DNA from: Brachionus koreanus
Lineage: Eukaryota; Rotifera; Eurotatoria; Ploima; Brachionidae
Direction: 5' to 3'
Length of the DNA stretch: 45,779 nucleotides
NCBI GenBank assembly: GCA_016987375.1
Contig: PJRA01000274.1
Coordinates: 1,393-47,171 of the forward strand
Numbering within the stretch: position 1 is the stretch's first letter; each line of letters opens with the position of its first letter. The notes under the pieces are model-generated. The model was not told the DNA's origin. It did no database searches and saw nothing but the letters and a program-made list of their open reading frames with translations. This document shows positions 6,117 to 45,779 of this stretch, piece after piece. The position numbers were made by a program, and so were the translations under genes.

Positions 6117-8982
6117 ATGCTAAATCAATCGCTTAAACTATCAATTTTTTTTCTTGGTGTCACATTTTTTTGTGTTCATGGTAAATTTATCTAATCTCTA
6201 TGAAATTAAATAACACCAAACATTAAAGGCTTGTCATATGACTTAATCAATGACGGAAAATACATTCACCGTTCTTTAACAGATGGAAAATTCAAAATTT
6301 TATTAGTCACGAATGGTTCATACTTTTTATCAATTGAAAACAAAACATGGCTGGCCAGTTCTCCAGGAACATTTTTGAGAGCAAATGGTTTTAAATATTC
6401 AACTATAGACAAAACATTAATTCTCAACCAAACAAGTTCTTCATCGGGAAATGATACTCTAGGAAGATATCAAACTTTTAAACTCCACTACTCACTTTAC
6501 AATGATCCCACTACCATAGTTGATTATACTATATATACGTATGAAAATTACGATATGGTCAGATTTTCTCAAGTAAAATTTAGGAATATTTTATCAAAAT
6601 AGGAATGTTTTTTGATTTTTGAATAAAATATTTTATAGAAATTTCCTAATGGTGCTCGACGAACATCAATTAACAATTTTGATTCAGTTCTATCAGCATT
6701 TCCTTCATTTAAAGTTCAATCCATTTATCCGCAAGATGTCGGCTATTTAAGCTTTGGTGGCATGATGGCTGGAGATATGGAAAAAATATATGGAAAATGG
6801 AATTATTTAACTTTGAACATAAATGATGGTATCGGAGCTGGACCAATTGTAATGTTCGACACTTCTGGAAATACTTTAATTATATCTCAAATGAGTGAAT
6901 TTATGTCAACTTCACTTCAAAAAGAAGGAAGAAGTGGTGCTAATTTAAATTATGGTGTAATGAGTGGAGTAGACCAAATACCTGCCAATTATTCGGCTGA
7001 TTTTGTGGTGTTCTATAGTGACAAAGGTATCAATAAGGCAATGAAAGCTTGGGGAGACATGTTGATTAAATTTCATGGAAAAAAATTCAATTTAGTTTCC
7101 AACGACGTTACTAGTAAATATTTGTCTTATTGGATGGACAATGGAGCCTATTATTACTGGATTACTGAGAACGGCAAGACCTATCAAGATACAATAATGG
7201 ACATAGTTTCCGATTTTAATAGGAACAAAATTCCATTTAGATCGCTGCAATACGATTCATGGTGGTATGGGGCCCAAAGAGGCTTTAGACAAGGGTGTTA
7301 TGAATGGAATGGAAATAAACCTAGTGATAGATTTCCTCAAAGTCTTGAATATGTTTTTAAAAATACAGGTTTACCTATCACAGCTCATAATAAATTTTGG
7401 GATATCAAAACAGTTTATGCTAAACAATATGGTGGCAACTACAATTTTGTCTTAGATCAATTTACGGGTAAATCTCTTCCTGACGATCAAAAATTTTGGG
7501 ATGATCTTTTTCTTAATGGCACTCGATGGGGTTTGAGCACCTATGAACAAGACTGGCTTAACCATCAAACTTTTGATTTTACGCCATTAATGTCCGACAT
7601 TGCTTTGGGAAAACGGTGGCTAACACAGATGGGTAATGCTGCCTTAAAATTCAACATGACTTTACAGTATTGTATGTCTCTAAGTAGACATGTTTTACAA
7701 AGCTTAGAAATTGAAGCAGTAACTCAAGTCAGAGTTACTAACGATTATGCGACCAATTGGCAGTATGGTGGACAACAATGGAGACTTGGAGTATCAAGCA
7801 TTTTTTCATCTTCTGTTGGCTTAATGCCTTTCAAAGATGTTTATTGGACAACAGCTGTTCAAAGTGAAAATCCCTATGGCTCTAAAATTGTCAATCCTAA
7901 TACCGAATTGGACTCTTTAGTCTCAATACTTACAGGTTATTGATATTATTAGATTATTTTTTCTGAGTATAATAAGTCATTAGTAAAAATTACAGTCAAA
8001 TTTGTGATTAGACTGTTAGTTTTTTTTTATTGATTTTTAAAACTTTACTTATTGACTGAATATTTTCATTAAGAAATAAGTTAGGATACAGATTTATGTT
8101 GTGGTCGTAAAAATCATAAGAAAAAAATATGCATTTTATTATTTAATTTTTTTTAGTTATTCTTTATAAAATTTTGAAATAACAATTACGATGAATTTTA
8201 TGAAAAAAGTGAATTTTTTTATTTCTTTAATAAATTTAGGTGGTCCGGTTGGTCCGGGCGATAAAATTGGACTAATGAATCGCACGCTGATAATGAAATC
8301 TTGTAATGATGAAGGCTTGTTGTTGAAACCCAGCAGACCTGCTACTGCAATTGATGCACAAATTTATGCCAAAGCTCTGGGTGTCGCTTATGGTCCAAAT
8401 GGAGAAGTTTGGTCTACTTACACAAAAATTGGAAATTTTACTTTTGGAATTATTTTTGCTGCTGACATTAAATTGAGTTATACAGTTTTGCCAGAACAAA
8501 TGGGTTTTGAAGTTCAAGTAAATTAAATTTCGATTATTTTTAGAGCATTTAAATACCTTTATTAAGAATGAATCATATTTTTGGAGTTTTAGAAACTATG
8601 CAAGAGTTAAGCCCATGAAAAATATTACCATAGATAATGAGTGTACGATAAATAAATTTTGCTTGTTCCATATAACGCCAGCTATAACACTCAAGTAACT
8701 TTTTCAATGAAAAATTATCAGTTAAGATTTTTTTTAAGTAATAATCAAATTGTACTATTGGGTGAACAAGAAAAGTGGGTTCCAATGTCACCTCAGCGAA
8801 TTACTTCAATAAACAAAAATACAAATGCATTGACAATTGGATTAGATGGAGTTCCAGAAGAAAAAGTTTCAATTTCATTTTTGATAAATCAGGCATTTAA
8901 AAAAATTGACTGTAACTTTGGAGTTAATCAGCGAAAAATGACTGTATCTATTGATGAAAAGTTGAACTTAATTTGTTCCTAA
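6117..8982 (+). CDS. Secreted glycoside hydrolase, GH36/raffinose-synthase-like
   Basis: Proposed exons: 6117-6180, 6229-6572, 6639-7935, 8240-8517, 8546-8694, 8739-8982 (791 residues). The signal peptide is MLNQSLKLSIFFLGVTFFCV. The large third exon holds the TIM-barrel region. Recognisable pieces are YEQDWL, the stretch from QYCMS to TQVRVTNDY (compare the SDD acid/base motif of raffinose synthases), and GGPVGPGDKIG across the exon 3/4 junction, which parallels the SGGP...SD.VG motif of Sip1/raffinose-synthase proteins. The C-terminal VLLGEQEKWVP belongs to the final beta domain. The first Asp of the usual SDD is Asn here (TND), so catalysis needs checking. The junction between exons 4 and 5 would need an intron of only 28 nt, so the true splice there is uncertain (a GTTCAA donor at 8510 is one alternative). 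Clan GH-D membership is likely; substrate unknown. Confidence 0.6.
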
Positions 8983-12392: not shown

Positions 12393-13994
12393 TCAATTCG
12401 CTTGCATATCTTGTTCATCATCATCATATTCATCAAACTCATCATCATAGTCCTCATCATCATCTTCAGCGTTTTCATTATCAAAAGAAAAGGCTTTTTG
12501 ATTTTTTCCCGCTTTTCCATTCATTCCACGCGATCGCTTCCATTTCATCCGTCTATTTTGAAACCAAACTTTGACCTGTCTTTCGCTCAAATCCAGTGCC
12601 ACTGCAATCTCATATCTACGCAATCGCGTCAAATAATTGTGTTTGCAGAACTCTTTTTCCAAATCTTTAACCTGGGCTTTGGTAAAAGCTGTCCTCTCTT
12701 TACGAGACTTAGAATTAGCTGAGCTAGAATTTTTAGATTTGACTGGTTTAAGCAATCCGGCCTTATTTAAAACTTGATTGTTGGTCACTGAAGTGACACT
12801 AGTGTAATTATTTTGTGCGCCAATATTCGAAATGTGCTCATTGACTGGTGTTACTAGACTTTTGGCCGACAATGAGTTGTGGCCAAGGGCGTTTTGTTTC
12901 CCAAACGAATCGTTCAATTTATCTACAATAAAACATAAATATTTATTATTCTAAAATAGAAAAACACGCTACATAAAACGCTTGATTTCATTTTATGTTT
13001 TTGTTTGTATGAGAAACAAAAACATGTGTTTTTGCAATCAATGCTGCAAATCGACTCAAATTAGTCTAAACATAGTTTATTTATCTTTAAATAAGACTCT
13101 GCTATTTTGACATTTATACAAAAATTTACTACTATAATCACTGGGTTCTAATGCCTTAGATTGTTATTCAACTCAAAAATGCTAATTCGTTTCATCTTTA
13201 GAACTAATTACCTCACTTGTTCAGTTAATCTACAGAACACTAATTCAATGAATTAGTGAATTTTTTTTTTCTAGGACCAAAAATTTTTGCTCAAATAATT
13301 TTGAAAAAAAAATTGCCAAATTCTTACTTTTTAAATAATTATTATTTAGCATAGTATTGGGAGAAATATTTGAATTATTATCAAAGTTGGATTGGGTTTC
13401 ATCTGGTGTTAATGGGTGTGTTGGAACAGTGTAATTATTGTGCTCAATTGAGCTTGAAAACGATGAAGTAGACAAAGAAGAAATGGATTTGTTTAAATTT
13501 TTTTGGCTATTGATCTGATTGTTCTGATTGAGTTTGTTCCACCATGGGTTTGAATCAGTATACTGGTAATCATATGAATTGTAGCCTGGTTGGTATGTTT
13601 GCTGTGTGTAGTAGTTTTGTGGGCATTGGTTTGAATATGTGTGATTGAATTGACTATTTTGATAGTACAATTGGTTGTGTGTCTGAGTATTGGGACCAGT
13701 TGATCCATTGGCGTACACATTGGCCAAACTGGCCAGATGACAGAGTGCAGCAGCTGTTGATGAGTTAACGTCCACGTGGGAATTGTTGGGCGACACGTTT
13801 GACGACGAGGCGCTCGAGTTCAAGTTTGGCGAAGAGGACAACAGAGGTGATATTGTTGGCGATACTTGCGGATTCAGCAAGTATGTCTGATTAGTTTGTT
13901 TGCTAGGATAATAGTTGACATTCGGACTGCTAGGGGTGCCATTTGCGGCCGCTGCAACCGCTACTGCTTGCATATAAAAATGCTGTGCTTCCAT
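12393..13994 (-). CDS. Mox: Mox/Meox-type homeobox transcription factor
   Basis: Two exons, 13328-13994 and 12393-12922, joined in phase 1, give 398 residues. Exon 1 is a low-complexity Ser/Asn/Gln/Tyr-rich region ([18 protein letters not shown]). The homeodomain occupies about residues 295-354. It begins [19 protein letters not shown], continues [18 protein letters not shown] and ends with the recognition helix [16 protein letters not shown]. The [14 protein letters not shown] signature is diagnostic of Mox/Meox (Gax/buttonless) among ANTP-class genes. In other bilaterians these act in mesoderm and muscle patterning. Unusual here is a C-terminal tail of about 30 mostly Asp/Glu residues. A TTTATT (AATAAA on the coding strand) near 12250 could be the poly(A) signal. 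Confidence 0.9.
12923..13327 (-). other. Mox intron
   Basis: The single intron of about 405 nt, with GTAAGA donor and TTGTAG acceptor, lies upstream of the homeodomain exon. No coding signal inside. Confidence 0.7.
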
Positions 13995-14926
13995 TTTTTT
14001 GGTTTTATTCTAAAATTTAACAAATATTTAAATAAGGTCTATCGGTTTATCTGTCTAGTATAGATTTTTCTCATCTAGATTGTAATCCGACTCAATCCAT
14101 AAACCGGATTGAGTGGTAAGATGCCAACCAGGAATAAAGGCGGCAAGTCATGTGAGAGAGAGAGATGTTCTATCTTAATTATGATGAGATAATAATCATG
14201 AAATAATTTGAAATGCAATTATAAAGTAATAAACTCGTTTCTTTTTTTGTTTCTCTGTTAGCTTAAAAAATAACTCCTTTAGAATCGAATCAGCAGTAGA
14301 GTTTTTATAACTTAGATTGCTGTTTAGCAGCCAATTGAATTTTAACTAAAGATAATTGATTCTGATTAGTCGATGGTATTAGAAGATAAATGAAAAGTTC
14401 TTCTAACCTACCCAATTATATTTTCTAGTCGATTTATCTATTAGAAAAATAGAGAATGAGATTAAATTGAAATTAGGTTTAAGCACCGGCGACTTGGACT
14501 AGTAGTTTTCCTTGACTTTGTTTGTTTAATCTCAATAAATATTTGACTTGGTGTTTTGACTATAGAGCATACACGCACATGTGAGCTTTTTGCAAAATGG
14601 ACACAACTCGGATCTTGGGTTTTATCTTCCTATCGAATGCCATTTTTAAAAGACTCTGTACGCCCCAAGTCATATCCTAAATATCAATGCTTTTAAAAAT
14701 AAAATGAATTAGCATTTAAATTTTTTTACAAATCGGTATGCTAACCTTTATGACTTTAGAGGAAATTAATAGATTTTTTTTTCGATCTGAGGCGATTAGA
14801 TTCAAAGTTAAATTTTAAATTTTCAAAATTTTATTCAAATAACTATCTATCTAATAAATGCACCTTTTTTTTTAAATAGTTTAACGTATATCCTTGAATA
14901 GTATTTTTTTTTAAATAAAATTAGTA
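13995..14926. other. Mox upstream region
   Basis: About 930 bp 5' of the Mox start, with somewhat higher GC than the surrounding intergenic DNA. It contains the inverted repeat at 14090-14114 and a GA-rich run (GAGAGAGAGA, about 14155). Probably promoter and enhancer sequence, but no factor site can be named with confidence. Confidence 0.4.
14090..14114. repeat. Perfect 9-bp inverted repeat upstream of Mox
   Basis: ACTCAATCC at 14090-14098 and its exact reverse complement at 14106-14114 flank a 7-nt spacer, about 100 bp before the Mox start codon. It could be a dimeric transcription-factor site or a hairpin in the 5' leader. Confidence 0.5.
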
Positions 14927-39064: not shown

Positions 39065-40582
39065 ATGCTTTCAAATCAACAATTTCTATCATGTCCTATT
39101 TGTCACAAAGAATATAAATCACCCATTATTTTACCGTGTGGCGAGAGTATATGTTCAAAATGTGTCAGCCCAATTGGTCCTTTTTCTAAAAATTTCCAAT
39201 GCAAACTTTGCAATTCTGTTCATGAAATACCAGAAAATGGTTTTCCTCAAAACAAAGCGCTAGTTAATGTTATAAATATTAACAAAGCAACTTTAAGCGA
39301 GAGACAGGTTGAAAAAAGGCTAAAATGCATCTTGGAAATTGAAGCTGACTGGGTTTATTTGAGAAAAAGCTTTGAAACCTGCAAAGAAAAAATTAAAGAT
39401 CTTGTCAAAGAAATTATAAATGATATTGAGAATGAAGCTGATTTGAAATGTGACCAAATAAGTCAGCTACGCGATGATCTTGTTGAAAAAGTACTGAATT
39501 ATGAGAAAAATTGTCTGGAGAATTATACTAATTATAACACTGAGTATTATTATTTTGTTAAAGAATTAGAGCCTTACAAAAAAGACACACATGCTAAAGA
39601 GAATTTTCTCATTGCTGAATCAATCAAATCACGGCTCGGAATAGAAATTCAAAAATTTAAAAATCAAATTTCAAATTATGAAATATTAAGCTTCAAAAAA
39701 AATCCAGCTTCAATTGATCCAAGTACACTTGGTTTTATCCATGAACATCACATAGATCCTATCAAACTTTCGGAATATATAAAAATTGATTTTTCAAAGC
39801 AACTGGATGGATTAAACGAATTAAGACAAAATTTAAAAATTAAAAAATTAAATGAAAAATTTTTTTCTATTAGTTTTGTATTAACATCTTATGACATTGA
39901 TATAGCAACTGATTCAAATAGTTTGGTCTACAAGCTGGTGCTACAAGTTCATGATTTGAATCAATGTCAAAGACGTTTTGAATTAGAGTTAAGTGAAAAT
40001 CAAATGGATTATGAAATAGAGGCTAATGAAGGAATGATTGCACTAAATGTTGGTAACATATTGATTGGTTTTGATTATAATTTGAATGAGGTTTCTCGTA
40101 CTAATGTTGTTTCTATGATACAAAGTATTGTTATATCTAATAACTTAATATTGTGTCTTGGCAAATCTGAGTTTGGCTCTACTTTACAAGCTTATGATTT
40201 TTCCTTAAATTTATTTAAGATTTATTCTAGTGAGAATAAGACGTGTCTTTACTTGCCAGAAAATACGGAAAAAATTTTTGTTAATGATAGTTTTTTATTT
40301 TTCAAAGAAAAAAATCAAATAATTGTGGTAGACAAAGATGACGGAAGGTTTGTAAAAAGTATCAAAATCGATCAGGATACTAATATATTTGGAATTAATA
40401 ATCAAAATGTTATTGCTGTATTCAACAAAGCTCTTAAGATCATTAGTTTTTTAGATTTTGATGGAAATCGAAGGGACGAAAGAAACTTGGATGAGTACCC
40501 TAGTGAAAAAACTGAATTTATTTTAAATAATAATTATAGCATAGATTTAATTGATTCTCAAAATTTAGCTGTTTATTTTTAA
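39065..40582 (+). CDS. RING-finger coiled-coil protein (TRIM-like E3 ligase candidate)
   Basis: One uninterrupted exon, 505 residues, unusual among the intron-rich genes here. A RING lies at residues 10-49: CPIC (10-13), LPCGESICSKC (23-33), FQCKLC (44-49). The position normally held by the zinc-binding His (PCGHxxC) is Glu27, so either zinc site 2 is altered or another residue substitutes. Residues about 75-250 are Lys/Glu-rich and helical, probably coiled coil. The C-terminal half (about 275-505) is a run of beta-strand-like segments of about 40 residues (IVISNNLILCLGK, FVNDSFLFFKEKNQIIVVD) suggesting a beta-propeller, with no clear NHL or WD signature. RING-coiled-coil-propeller proteins are typically ubiquitin ligases; target unknown. 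The single exon could reflect retroposition. Confidence 0.75.
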   Translation: MLSNQQFLSCPICHKEYKSPIILPCGESICSKCVSPIGPFSKNFQCKLCNSVHEIPENGFPQNKALVNVININKATLSERQVEKRLKCILEIEADWVYLRKSFETCKEKIKDLVKEIINDIENEADLKCDQISQLRDDLVEKVLNYEKNCLENYTNYNTEYYYFVKELEPYKKDTHAKENFLIAESIKSRLGIEIQKFKNQISNYEILSFKKNPASIDPSTLGFIHEHHIDPIKLSEYIKIDFSKQLDGLNELRQNLKIKKLNEKFFSISFVLTSYDIDIATDSNSLVYKLVLQVHDLNQCQRRFELELSENQMDYEIEANEGMIALNVGNILIGFDYNLNEVSRTNVVSMIQSIVISNNLILCLGKSEFGSTLQAYDFSLNLFKIYSSENKTCLYLPENTEKIFVNDSFLFFKEKNQIIVVDKDDGRFVKSIKIDQDTNIFGINNQNVIAVFNKALKIISFLDFDGNRRDERNLDEYPSEKTEFILNNNYSIDLIDSQNLAVYF

Positions 40583-41489
40583 TTATTGATTAATTATAAA
40601 CAAGTTTTTTGTTTGAAGAAATTAATTTTTCTCACTTCTAATTTTAATAAAAGAATCGCATTTTAACAAAAAAATAAATAAATTACTTAATAGAATTTTG
40701 AAAGATTAATTATTAATCTCGAATAAAAAAATTTGCAATTTAACCACGATTTATTTTATAAAAGTAGTTTTCTTTTTCAATTTTGGCTTTGTAGCTATTA
40801 ATTCTCTTGACTGTTACTAATTGTTTTTATTTGATGCCTTATTCCATGTTTGCATAACTCTGTTTTTTGAATTATTTAATTTAATAAATTCATTAGAATT
40901 TAATTTAATTGAATTAATTATGAAAGTTTAGAATATTCAGAATTCTTAATATACAAGTTTTCAATCACTTCCTTTTTACCAATTGTTAAAAATAGTTGGT
41001 ATTGAAATAAATTACTCTGAAGAAAATTCGAGGATTAATAGCCTAGTGATACTATATTTTCTAGTCAAAATCATTTTTTTTTTGAAATTAATAAAAAAGA
41101 TATGCTAAAAAATTTCATAATTATGTTTTAAATAACTAATCCGTTGCAAAAATTCTAAATTTTGACCTTACGCTCAGTGAACAAAACCAAAGTAAAAACT
41201 GAACTTAATAGCAAATGGATTCTTTTAATGAATCAGAAGGTTTATTGGTATTCAAGGAGAATAAAGATTAAAAAGCAAATTTAAAATAAATTTAGAAAAA
41301 AATTTAAATTAGTAGCAGCCATAACTTATAAATTTTGTTAACCTAAAAAGAGAACCTTTTAAAAAAAAATAAAATAAATAAATTCAGAACTAATTTTTTT
41401 TACTTAGTAAAACACATTAATTTTAAAAATTTTTATATTAAACGGATTAGATTTAGACATTTTTAAATTGTGATACACTGGCCTGAGAC
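40583..41489. other. Intergenic, no gene seen
   Basis: AT-rich 3' flank of the RING gene with an AATAAA near 40646. Stops in all frames. Confidence 0.45.
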
Positions 41490-41826
41490 ACTGTCGAATT
41501 CTGAACCATAAAATAAGAAAAAATTCAGAGCCATTAAGTCAATCTATTAAGAACAAAAGATTACGATGGCTTGGACATGTACTTAGAATGAAAGAAAAAA
41601 GAATGCCAAAAAAAGTCCTTCAATGGACATCCCAAGGGCGACGTAATGTAGGAAGATTACCAGTGATTTTGAGTGATTGTCAACAATCACGAAAGAGTTA
41701 TCGAAATGGGAATGACATTGAGATTGACTTTGTAATGTTTACATATGTCGCTATATCACAGACTTGAGTGGAAATCAAAAGTAATGACCCTATTCTCCAC
41801 TAGGAATGAATAAGGAAAAAAAAAGA
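41490..41826 (+). mobile_element. 3' end of a LINE-type retrotransposon
   Basis: From about 41503 the plus strand encodes EPLSQSIKNKRLRWLGHVLR, then M..KRMPKKVLQWTSQGRRN and VGRLP, the well-known tail of non-LTR reverse transcriptase proteins (rRLrWLGHVlRM...P...L.w...G.R..GRP). After a frameshift it ends TLFSTRNE-stop, matching the usual ...STRNE ending, followed by an A-rich tail. The reverse transcriptase and endonuclease are missing, as expected for a 5'-truncated insertion. Confidence 0.75.
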
Positions 41827-42782
41827 TTAAGGTATTTTTAAATTACCTTTATTTTTGATGGTAGGTCTTTATCAAACTTGACAAAATTATTTTCTTATAC
41901 AAAGTGAATTTTATAGGATTTTTTCCAAATATTTATTAAAAGAAAATTTAATTTCGATTTTAAATTTTCATAAATTAAGCTTTCAATAACACTTTTATGC
42001 CTTCTTTAATTAAAAATTAAAATTTATTTTTTATTTTGTAAAGTAAAAGAGTTCAATTAGGTTATTTTTGATGAAAATTGTTTAGAAGAGAAAAAAAAAA
42101 GTTATTCAGAATAAACATTCTTTTCGCCAGATGACAGATAATTAAAAATAGAAATAGAGAGTGGTTCTTTTCTCTTAAAATTAGAAACGGACTAATTTCC
42201 AATTTTTTTCCATTATATCCTATACATAATTAGATATTTTCAAAAATTACAAATCAATTTATCTTTTAAAAAAAAATTTGTTTCCAAAAAAATTTCATTA
42301 TTTTGCAACATTTTCTTTAGTTCAAATCCCTAGTAACACTGCTAAATCAAATATTTGTTTTTATTTCAAATTTCAACATAGCAAAACATGCGATACGCTT
42401 TTAGTAGACTTAAATAACAAAATAAACTAAATGAATTATTGTTTTTTTCTGGATATTTAGAAATAAATTTCGATTTTTTTCCTTTTTTAAAATATTTCTA
42501 GTGTATTCTAAAAAATTAGCTTTATTTCCTTCCTTAAATCAATCTTTAAATTAAATTCAAAACAAACTTAATTTTTCACTTTAACAAAAAGAAATCTAGT
42601 TACTTAACTTTGTTTTAGAGTTCTTGATAGCGTAACCTTGAAAAAGAAAATTAATTATTTGTTGCTATGATTGCTAAATTTTTTCACATCGACTATAAAT
42701 TATCTAAAATTTTTAAAGACTAAAATTAATTTTGCTAACTAATCGATTTTTGAGTAGATTAGATGGTAAATTTTGTCAAACT
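41827..42782. other. Intergenic, no gene seen
   Basis: AT-rich DNA between the LINE tail and the ROCO-like promoter. No coding signal. Confidence 0.45.
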
Positions 42783-42783
42783 G

Positions 42784-42838
42784 TGACGTAATATTTGTTC
42801 GAGTTGCCAAGACAACCTTTTTAAAAAAAATATAAATA
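42784..42838 (+). promoter_or_regulatory. Promoter with CRE-like site, RFX X-box and TATA box
   Basis: Three elements stand in order before the ROCO-like start codon (42889): TGACGTAA (42784-42791, CRE/ATF-like), GTTGCCAAGACAAC (42803-42816) and TATAAATA (42831-42838). The middle one fits the RFX X-box RYYNYY-AT-RRNRAC at 13 of 14 positions (the spacer is AA instead of AT) and lies 86 bp upstream of the ATG, within the usual window for X-boxes of ciliary genes. The TATAAATA is the same octamer as in the two elongase promoters. Confidence 0.6.
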
Positions 42839-42888
42839 TTTGAAGATAAATCTTCAATTAAAAATAATAATAATTTGTTGTTAGTATT

Positions 42889-45198
42889 ATGTCAGATAAC
42901 GAAGTTACCAAAATTTTATATCTACCAAAAGAAGTTTTTTTTCGAAATGCGATACTGGATTTAGACACCTTGATCAGGTCAAATGAGTTCGAAAATGCAA
43001 ATATATTGGACTTTTCTGGTGTTGAGACCGCTAACGACTTGTTATTTTGGATTCTAAAATCTATTTTATCCAAACACGAAAATTTTAATAAAGAAAACTT
43101 AGACTATTTTCTTCTAAATGGCTGTGCAAATATTTCAATATGGACATTGCATCATTTGAATTCATTCAACGGGAAAAATCTATTCAGTTTTCCAGAGATC
43201 AAAGTAAAAAAAAGCTAAAAATAAAAAATTTTCAAAATTTTTCATAATTTTTATTAAACAAGTTGAATAAACGATTTTCATGCTGCCCAAGAATATCGGA
43301 GAGTTTAATGGTATCGTTGGATTGTGATGCTCAAAAAAAATTTTACAATGGTAAAATTTTTTAAATTAATTTATTTTAATAAATTTTAAAATTTAGAAGC
43401 TGCTTTTGATCAGACAAAGTGTGTCTTGATAAATTCAAATTCGTTTAATTCAAAATTAAGCGAAAATGTTTTTAATTTGAATAAAATTAGAAATGATAAA
43501 AATGAATTTTTTAAATATATGAAACTAAAATCACCTAATAAAAAAACAATCAATTTTTTTGAATGCTCACAAGTAATATCAAGATTCAGATTTAAATTAA
43601 GATTTTATTTATTTTGGTTTTATTAAAGTCAACTTGCGAACTATTCCTGAGCGAAAGAAATCTTGTCATATTGACATTTGATGCTAGCGTTGATGAAGAA
43701 ACGATCAAAAATTCTCTTTTACCACGCTTACTAATTGTGATGACAAAAAATATTCTACCAGTTAAAGTTTTGATTCTTGGCATTGGACAAGCTGAAGGAA
43801 CACTTTGTCAAAAAATTCAGTCGAATCTCAACAAAGCTTTAAGAAATTTGGAAAAAAAATTAAGAAAATCAGTTGATTTACACATGAAGTAGTTCTAGAA
43901 ATTTTTCAATTTTGTTTAAATTTAATTTTGCTAAATTTTAGAAATTATTTAAATCTAAATTTTAATCTTCAACTTGAATTGAGCGACATTCTAAACCTAG
44001 CTGAACATATAGGCTATCTAATCAATCTCTTGGATTATGGTTGCATAAATGTTGAGAACAATTCGGATAAAATAATGATTCTAAACAATTCTAATTTGAG
44101 GCAAGAGGCATCAAGTCACTCAGAATTTTATAAGAACGATGCTTATAGCATAGTTTCTAATATCACCAATGCTGATTTAGCCGAACTCAAGTCTCTTAAA
44201 GCTCCGCCTTCAGGAGTTCAAATTGTAGCTGAAGCTATGTGCTATCTGTTCGCTAAGCCAGCTAGTTATCAAAATTTTGTTCGACTCATCAATTCTCCAA
44301 GCTTTGTAAAACAATTGAAAGAATTCGACATTAATTTGGTAAATGAATACAAATTAAAGCATGTTAAGCAGTATGTAGATATGCCAAATTTCAATCCCGA
44401 ATACATTTCTAAAATTTCAAAAACAGCTTCAGTATTGTGTCAATTTGTTCGTTCTGTTTATTTCTATTGTTCTTCATTAGAGCCGGTAATAAAAATTAAA
44501 AAAAAGTATATAAATTTTTTTTTTATTTTTAAATAAAGACTGAAATCAATCCAAATGATGATGATTCTCCAAGTTTACAAAACGATTCAAATGTATCTTT
44601 AAGAAGCTACATTGCAGATAATTCGTTCTATATGTTCAAATGGAATTTGTTTTATGATGAAAAGCATGAAAAAAATGAACATGAAATTGATGAGCTTATA
44701 GATAGATATTTGAATTTGAAAACTAGATTTATTATAACTGTCGATGAATTCAATCAGTTATTCGAATCGAATAAAAAATTAAAGTATTATCAAACAAAAT
44801 TTTATAAGCAATTATCAATGAGATATGCAAAGGCTGAGAACGCCCGTGGTCACTTTTTTTACAATGAAAAAACACCTTACATAATTACTGATATAAATTG
44901 GCTAATGAATGTTATAAATATTTTGTCAAATGGAATAACCAGTGAATCAAAATTGAACATTATTTTTGGCTCGAATATTCCCATTTGGAATGGTTCTGAA
45001 CTGAGGGAAAAATTGAAAAATTTGTGTCCAAATGAGCAAATTTTTCGCTATCTAATTTCGTTTTTAAAAGAAAACAATTTACTAATTTTACCTGAAGAAC
45101 ACATAATGATACCTCTTTTTTGTCTAAGTAAAAATCAAGAATCATCTATGGTAAATATAAAATTATTGTATAATATTTTTTTTGAAATTTATGATTGA
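42889..45198 (+). CDS. ROCO-like pseudo-GTPase with dynein-type microtubule-binding stalk
   Basis: Six exons: 42889-43203, 43263-43350, 43397-43572, 43629-43888, 43942-44485, 44539-45198 (680 residues, all phases agree). Residues 1-105 are weakly LRR-like (NILDFSGVETANDLLFWI). Residues about 140-280 resemble a Roc domain: TKCVLINSN in place of the P-loop strand, INFFECSQ for the DFxGQ box, FLSERNLVILTFDAS, then VKVLILGIGQAEG where VGTHxD is expected. P-loop and base-recognition residues are absent, so no GTPase activity is expected. Residues about 350-460 match the dynein heavy-chain stalk/MTBD: ADLAELKSLKAPPSGVQIVA and NFNPEYISKISKTASVLCQF. Residues 462-680 are COR-like (ARGHFFYNEKTPYIITDINW, ILPEEHIMIPLFC). 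No kinase domain is seen. An ATG/GTAAAT at about 45150 could be a donor, so the C-terminus might extend further. Confidence 0.7.
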
Positions 45199-45779
45199 AT
45201 TAATTTTTATTTCTCTGACTTAGTCAACTTAATTTTATAAAAAATTTCATTAATTTTAAGAAAACAATTTAGGATTTGTATGCAAGCTAGCTTAATTTTT
45301 TTTTTAATTTTCAAATTTTATTAAATAAAAAATGAGTGTGTCATTTTTTAAATAAAAATTAATTTAGTTAATGATTTAATTTAGAAAAAAAAATTTCAAA
45401 GGATTGTCGAAAAATTTTCAAAATTTTCATCAAAAAGCTATCAAAAAATAAAAATATTTGAAATTTTTATGTCTCATTTTATGCATTCTAAAGTTCGGGC
45501 AATGCAAAACTTTCACACTATCTTCAGATTCAGTTTTCGGTCTCATTTTCAAATTCAACGCTAAGCCAAATTTTTAAGGGGGAAGTCAAATTTTTTTTGT
45601 AGGCTATTGGGGTCTGAAACTTATAATAATAATAATAGTTAATATTCTACGGTCAATATTGGTTTAACTAAATTGACAAAGCAGGAAGACTAACGTAGTC
45701 CCACTATAGTAGACTTCATTTTTTTTATTTCTACCGACATTGTCCAATCTGTTTTTGAACTGGTTCGGTGACCGAACCT
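45199..45779. other. 3' flank to window end, possible transposon terminus
   Basis: AT-rich up to about 45480, then noticeably less so. The window ends in GGTTCGGT-G-ACCGAACC (45762-45778), a perfect inverted repeat that could be the end of a DNA transposon continuing outside. A short (ATA)n run lies at about 45624. No gene recognised. Confidence 0.4.

Follow-up and report, generated by a model that had tools for sequence, protein, structure and literature searches.

A dynein-type microtubule-binding domain in a predicted TIR-ROCO gene of the rotifer Brachionus koreanus

The six-exon locus and its dynein-type domain

We analysed a 45,779-nucleotide stretch of the Brachionus koreanus genome (contig PJRA01000274.1, positions 1,393 to 47,171; hereafter the window), in which an earlier sequence-only reading had proposed a six-exon gene encoding a dynein-type microtubule-binding domain (MTBD) between the Roc and COR segments of a ROCO-like protein. 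We conclude, with moderate confidence, that the window contains the first six exons of a predicted double-ROCO gene of ~2,850 residues with TIR domains, and that the MTBD encoded by exon 5 likely docks the protein on microtubules. As had been proposed, the six exons are separated by GT-AG introns, every junction is phase-compatible, and the exons contain no stop codon; when joined, they give 680 residues in frame. The features of the gene, in window positions, are as follows.

42889..43203, forward strand: exon 1, start codon and LRR-like N-terminus (aa 1-105)
43263..43350, forward strand: exon 2, in which the LRR-like part ends (aa 106-134); also compared in the C2 copy
43397..43572, forward strand: exon 3, in which the pseudo-Roc segment begins; the 94%-identical C2 copy has no P-loop here
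43629..43888, forward strand: exon 4, pseudo-Roc core
43942..44485, forward strand: exon 5, end of the pseudo-Roc, then the dynein MTBD up to the exon end
44138..44485, forward strand: dynein-type MTBD (aa 346-461), PP motif retained, no flap insert
44539..45150, forward strand: exon 6, linker and COR-like segment (aa 462-665)
45151..45198, forward strand: non-coding in the corrected model, where intron 6 had been read through to a TGA

The C2 copy is a second copy of the gene on another contig of the genome; its exon 1 is intact and its exon lengths are identical to those of the window copy, whose contig we call C27. Exon 6 of the C2 copy ends at an ATG/GTAAAT donor, and its frame continues in exon 7, 1496 bases further on. 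Because the identical donor recurs in the window at 45150/45151, everything past residue 665, including the TGA at 45196-45198, is placed in the intron. The 680-residue protein originally proposed is therefore abandoned: its last 15 residues and its stop belong to the intron, and the predicted protein has ~2,850 residues.

A Pfam search with the joined protein returned a single family, PF12777 (MT), at residues 350-455 (38.9 bits against a cut-off of 24, E 7.1e-10). Exon 5 alone matched the same family at 42.2 bits (E 7e-11), again above the cut-off. The only other Pfam family for exon 5, DUF5068 (E 3.3e-4), scored below MT and below its own cut-off. A PDB search with the segment matched 55 distinct sequences at E<=10, the best being a Chlamydomonas doublet chain (8glv, E 1.3e-13); judged by name or chain length, all but one are dyneins, the exception being a designed protein (8v3b, E 0.45). 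Judged by these matches, the exon 5 segment is a dynein-type MTBD, as first suggested. To our knowledge, sequence comparison has otherwise identified dynein MTBDs in dynein heavy chains alone. The PF12777 alignment covers model positions 97-210 of 344 only, indicating that the stalk head is present and that the two long coiled-coil strands are absent. In predicted structure models, the helices at the base of the MTBD are ~13-26 residues long. The domain sequence aligns with DNAH2 and DNAH6 without a flap insert. Thus, the antiparallel coiled-coil stalk envisaged by the sequence-only reading has not been kept, and its picture of two stalk heads displayed on a COR dimer is unproven, since there is hardly any stalk.

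The Roc-like and COR-like flanks of the MTBD match weakly. Pfam, which recognises MT in the 680-residue protein, found no Roc or COR family in it at E<=10. Profile-profile comparison with hhalign gave E 6.5e-5 over 180 columns (probability 64%) for the COR-like flank and E=0.0022 over 23 columns, with a probability of 12.8%, for the Roc-like flank; reversed controls gave E 0.17-0.19. Within the pseudo-Roc core of exon 4, FLSERNLVILTFD resembles FLSSRGVYLLVW of the canonical Roc, and a low-confidence AlphaFold2 model of a B. plicatilis relative (P0001) yields G-domain-like matches for the pseudo-Roc. GTP-binding motifs were checked in five sequences, a list that included the C2 copy and excluded the window's own sequence. 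In these five, the first Roc-like segment has neither a P-loop nor a DxGQ motif; each motif occurs once, in a second Roc, followed by THxD, in every sequence. By profile comparison the flank after the MTBD is COR-like, and the Roc beside the MTBD appears from its sequence to be, at best, a degenerate pseudo-G-domain.

Other features were noted in the window. A RING-finger protein is encoded just upstream of the ROCO gene at 39065-40579 on the forward strand (zf-C3HC4, 21.4 bits against a cut-off of 21), and the 3' part and flank of this gene also adjoin the C2 ROCO copy, at ~90% identity. An open frame at 41474-41767 (forward strand) contains RLRWLGHVLRM and presumably resembles the reverse transcriptase of a non-LTR retrotransposon at its end. 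On the reverse strand, a homeodomain at 12393-12950, which we take to resemble MEOX, lies near a serine/asparagine-rich frame at 13245-14009. Finally, a 434-aa frame at 6639-7943 (forward strand) presumably resembles a glycoside hydrolase.

The predicted full-length gene, its copies and its relatives

The 83.3 Mb genome contains six copies of the MTBD-ROCO gene: the window copy and those on contigs C2, C15 (two copies, C15a and C15b), C37 and C16, with the models of C15b, C37 and C16 starting 25-29 residues late. The region C15:1217000-1241500 is a tandem array of the gene, in which one further copy was seen by its COR-like exon only. Each of the six MTBD copies is followed, at a distance of 8-12 kb and in the same orientation, by a canonical COR-A match. 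Spliced alignment of C2, C15a and C15b produced an 18-exon chain that leads from the MTBD half through an MBT repeat, an LRR/EF-hand part and a canonical P-loop Roc to COR-A and COR-B; these models were fitted to one another and are stop-free by construction. C2 and C15a have the same phase at 16 of 17 introns; the one that differs falls within the MBT part, a section in which the model is uncertain. Pfam recognised Roc (4.2e-22), COR-A (3.1e-30) and COR-B (4.4e-29) in the 3' half of the C2 model. A 19th exon extends this model to 2,846 residues, and its tail matches TIR_2 (1.5e-14) and TIR (2e-9) at two places C-terminal to COR. The second TIR carries a Cys-x-x-Glu, a type of motif known from TIRs that cleave NAD. 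Across the C2 model (2228 residues plus a 618-residue tail), Pfam found neither AAA nor any other family of the dynein motor, and likewise no kinase and no WD40 family. On C27 itself, Roc and COR-A matches are also present downstream of the window, where open frames beyond the stretch expected to contain exons 7-15 encode LRR, Roc and COR segments with 94-99% amino-acid identity to C2.

Relatives of the gene occur in other animals, the best homologues coming from Brachionus. In B. plicatilis, one predicted protein (P0009, 1849 aa, named pats1) contains both MT and Roc, and two shorter relatives, P0001 (464 aa) and P0002 (615 aa), carry the MTBD. Although the database names of the latter pair are "dynein heavy chain domain-containing 1-like" and "dynein heavy chain axonemal", they are parts of the MTBD-ROCO family and not dyneins. 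We built an MTBD profile from 14 MT-domain sequences of the genome outside the ROCO family, taken as dyneins with their AAA parts unchecked, and compared it with 122 homologues. The MTBD was found in four of these, namely P0001, P0002, P0009 and P0053 of the flatworm Macrostomum lignano (E 6.1e-13 for P0053), the next-best homologue being P0024 at E 0.025. When P0053 was searched against the PDB, dyneins were again the best matches (E 4e-8). These sequence comparisons imply that the combination of an MTBD with a ROCO protein is not confined to rotifers.

Three bivalve proteins (P0022, P0041 and P0062) can be aligned to the N-terminal half of the rotifer protein across 546 columns (E 1.9e-13), and no MTBD was detected between their pseudo-Roc and COR (E 0.29 and 0.72). 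Likewise, five proteins from a single annelid, Dimorphilus, gave a match of 133 columns (E 4.9e-9) and showed no MTBD (E 0.16 and 0.088). Since these N-terminal halves exist without the domain, either the N-terminal half is older and acquired the MTBD later, or molluscs have lost it. In a tree of MTBDs the Brachionus sequences form one group (98/96). Near-full-length Pfam MT matches were also observed at C37:286546-287592 and C16:1576529-1577575, ~88-90 kb from the MTBD-ROCO copy. It is possible that such a match was the donor of the MTBD, although the tree does not group the Brachionus MTBDs beside it.

The short B. plicatilis annotations raise the question of whether the two halves are instead adjacent genes inherited as a unit, a short MTBD-ROCO relative followed, some kb away, by an independent gene of canonical LRR-Roc-COR-TIR type. 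The boundary, however, is marked by neither a conserved start codon nor a conserved stop, and in the copies compared conservation of the linking exons reaches to or near the splice sites. The agreement of intron phases described above also argues for a single gene, as do P0009, P0053 and the bivalve records, each of which spans both halves in one predicted protein. We therefore regard the two-gene explanation as improbable. The placement of the MTBD between Roc-like and COR-like segments of a ROCO-type protein, proposed for the window, recurs in the six copies, B. plicatilis and the flatworm; what that proposal lacked was the second, canonical Roc-COR and the two TIR matches. On sequence grounds, the architecture, a dynein MTBD within a TIR-ROCO protein, is well supported, and it is a real, conserved combination that is undescribed in the literature searched.

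Constraint, contact residues and a possible mechanism

The C27 and C2 copies are 82-91% identical in DNA over aligned stretches of 39884-45530. Because this identity takes in introns, as well as some of the RING gene upstream, the two copies are perhaps alleles. Between them, the ratio of nonsynonymous to synonymous substitution rates (dN/dS) is 0.036 in the MTBD (1 nonsynonymous and 7 synonymous changes), compared with 0.27-0.41 in other parts (Fisher p 0.02). For the C37/C16 pair, dN/dS is 0.107 in the MTBD, 0.427 before it and 0.153 after it. These values bear on the explanation that the segment is a decayed dynein fragment or a gene-model artefact, with a ROCO pseudogene having taken up a dynein exon in one of its introns. 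The dynein names given to the B. plicatilis relatives by automatic annotation and the stop-free construction of the spliced models would fit such an origin. Nevertheless, purifying selection acts on the MTBD in both copy pairs, the domain lies at the same place in B. plicatilis and the flatworm, and exons 1-6 of the window are themselves stop-free, so that we consider this explanation highly improbable.

We next consider the residues through which a dynein MTBD contacts the microtubule. According to a published study, these are K3117, E3122 and R3124 in helix 1 (H1), R3152 and R3159 in H3, and R3201 in H6 (PMC7042235). They were mapped by offset from the match to a 4092-residue cytoplasmic dynein chain (residues 3114-3219), taken as yeast. 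The published contact numbering is presumably that of yeast dynein as well. At E3122, R3124 and R3201, the window MTBD has E, K and K; the H1 Glu/Lys, the PP motif and the H6 lysines are thus retained, and the H3 pair has no certain counterpart position. Docking on microtubules by the MTBD is likely.

Several observations weigh against this reading, in its functional as well as its architectural part. At the K3117 position, the first lysine contact of H1, the window copy has N, where K, R or Q occurs in 12 of the 13 MT domains of the genome that cover the position. C37, C16 and P0009 no longer have the H1 glutamate, and the H6 contact varies among the MTBD-ROCO copies. For the flatworm MTBD of P0053, Pfam lists no MT match at E<=0.1, and the tree does not place its branch. 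Among other rotifers, the same order was found in B. plicatilis; no MTBD was seen in three B. calyciflorus records (P0003, P0004 and P0024, of which P0003 and P0004 are partial at the 5' side and begin past the place of the MTBD) or in three Rotaria records (P0010, P0011 and P0060). The pseudo-Roc depends on the 23 profile columns and the low-confidence model described above. The COR-A match of C37 has an internal stop, perhaps an intron. In addition, exons 7-15 are known from homologous copies, and for C27 the link to its own 3' half is predicted from them.

The variable contacts, together with bivalve relatives of the N-terminal half that manage without the domain, would also suit a fold that serves as a protein-protein module without microtubule binding, either spacing pseudo-Roc and COR apart as a rigid helical element or binding another partner. 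Yet, in both copy pairs, no other part of the N-terminal half is as strongly constrained as the MTBD, the window copy keeps the residues named above, and MT domains elsewhere in the genome likewise vary at these contact positions. We thus find this alternative unlikely, though less so than the two discussed earlier, and continue to favour microtubule docking.

If the MTBD does dock, it would sit on tubulin as in dynein. Stepping would not be expected, because the protein has neither an AAA ring nor a long stalk. In dynein, changes in the stalk set MTBD affinity (PMC7042235, PMC6629372). The short helix pair at the base of the MTBD would be held between pseudo-Roc and COR, and since these helices run directly into both, ROCO changes could set MTBD affinity: GTP-driven changes would shift the first helix, the register change used by dynein, and so raise or lower the grip. 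Turnover of GTP by the second Roc-COR would be the driver and the TIR tail the output. A survey in Aplysia lists TIR-ROCO proteins among TIR-bearing receptors, with immune genes (PMC9334734), and by analogy an immune role is suggested for the rotifer protein, which as a whole might act as a microtubule-tethered, immune-type signalling switch. We tentatively propose, at somewhat less than even confidence, that a dynein microtubule-binding head has been built into an immune-type TIR-ROCO GTPase whose GTP switch controls grip and release, placing or triggering TIR signalling on the cytoskeleton.

Comparison with known systems

With a conserved dynein MTBD module in a signalling GTPase of Brachionus and a flatworm, the influence of helix register on MTBD affinity could be examined in a motor-free setting. 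The protein may also connect TIR signalling with the cytoskeleton, in animals whose immune systems have received little attention. It would further be a natural test of microtubule use by a ROCO GTPase and, if true, a counterpart of the debated link between LRRK2 and microtubules. For databases, it means that two B. plicatilis entries named dynein are misnamed.

The stalk MTBD of dynein heavy chains (PF12777; DNAH2, DNAH6 and cytoplasmic dynein-1) shares with the rotifer protein a helical MTBD with an ELKS..PP motif. A dynein heavy chain also has an AAA ring, a linker and a long antiparallel coiled-coil stalk, whereas the MTBD-ROCO model has none of these. LRRK2 and LRRK1 share the LRR-Roc-COR order, and LRRK2 is reported to associate with microtubules (PMC9290818; a title cited in PMC6337361). 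Unlike these kinases, the C2 model lacks kinase and WD40 domains and has a dynein-type MTBD, two Roc-COR-like units and TIR domains. The mollusc TIR-ROCO proteins (Aplysia LOC101848126 and LOC101845043; PMC9334734) combine MBT or EF-hand, LRR, Roc, COR and TIR, like the 3' half of the rotifer gene. The bivalve proteins P0022, P0041 and P0062 share the N-terminal LRR, pseudo-Roc and COR half and differ in having no MTBD. In Macrostomum lignano P0053 (2414 aa), LRR-like and Roc-like segments, an MTBD at 403-522, a COR-like segment, a canonical Roc-COR and a TIR follow in the same order; it differs in that no MBT family is listed and its MTBD has diverged below Pfam's reach.
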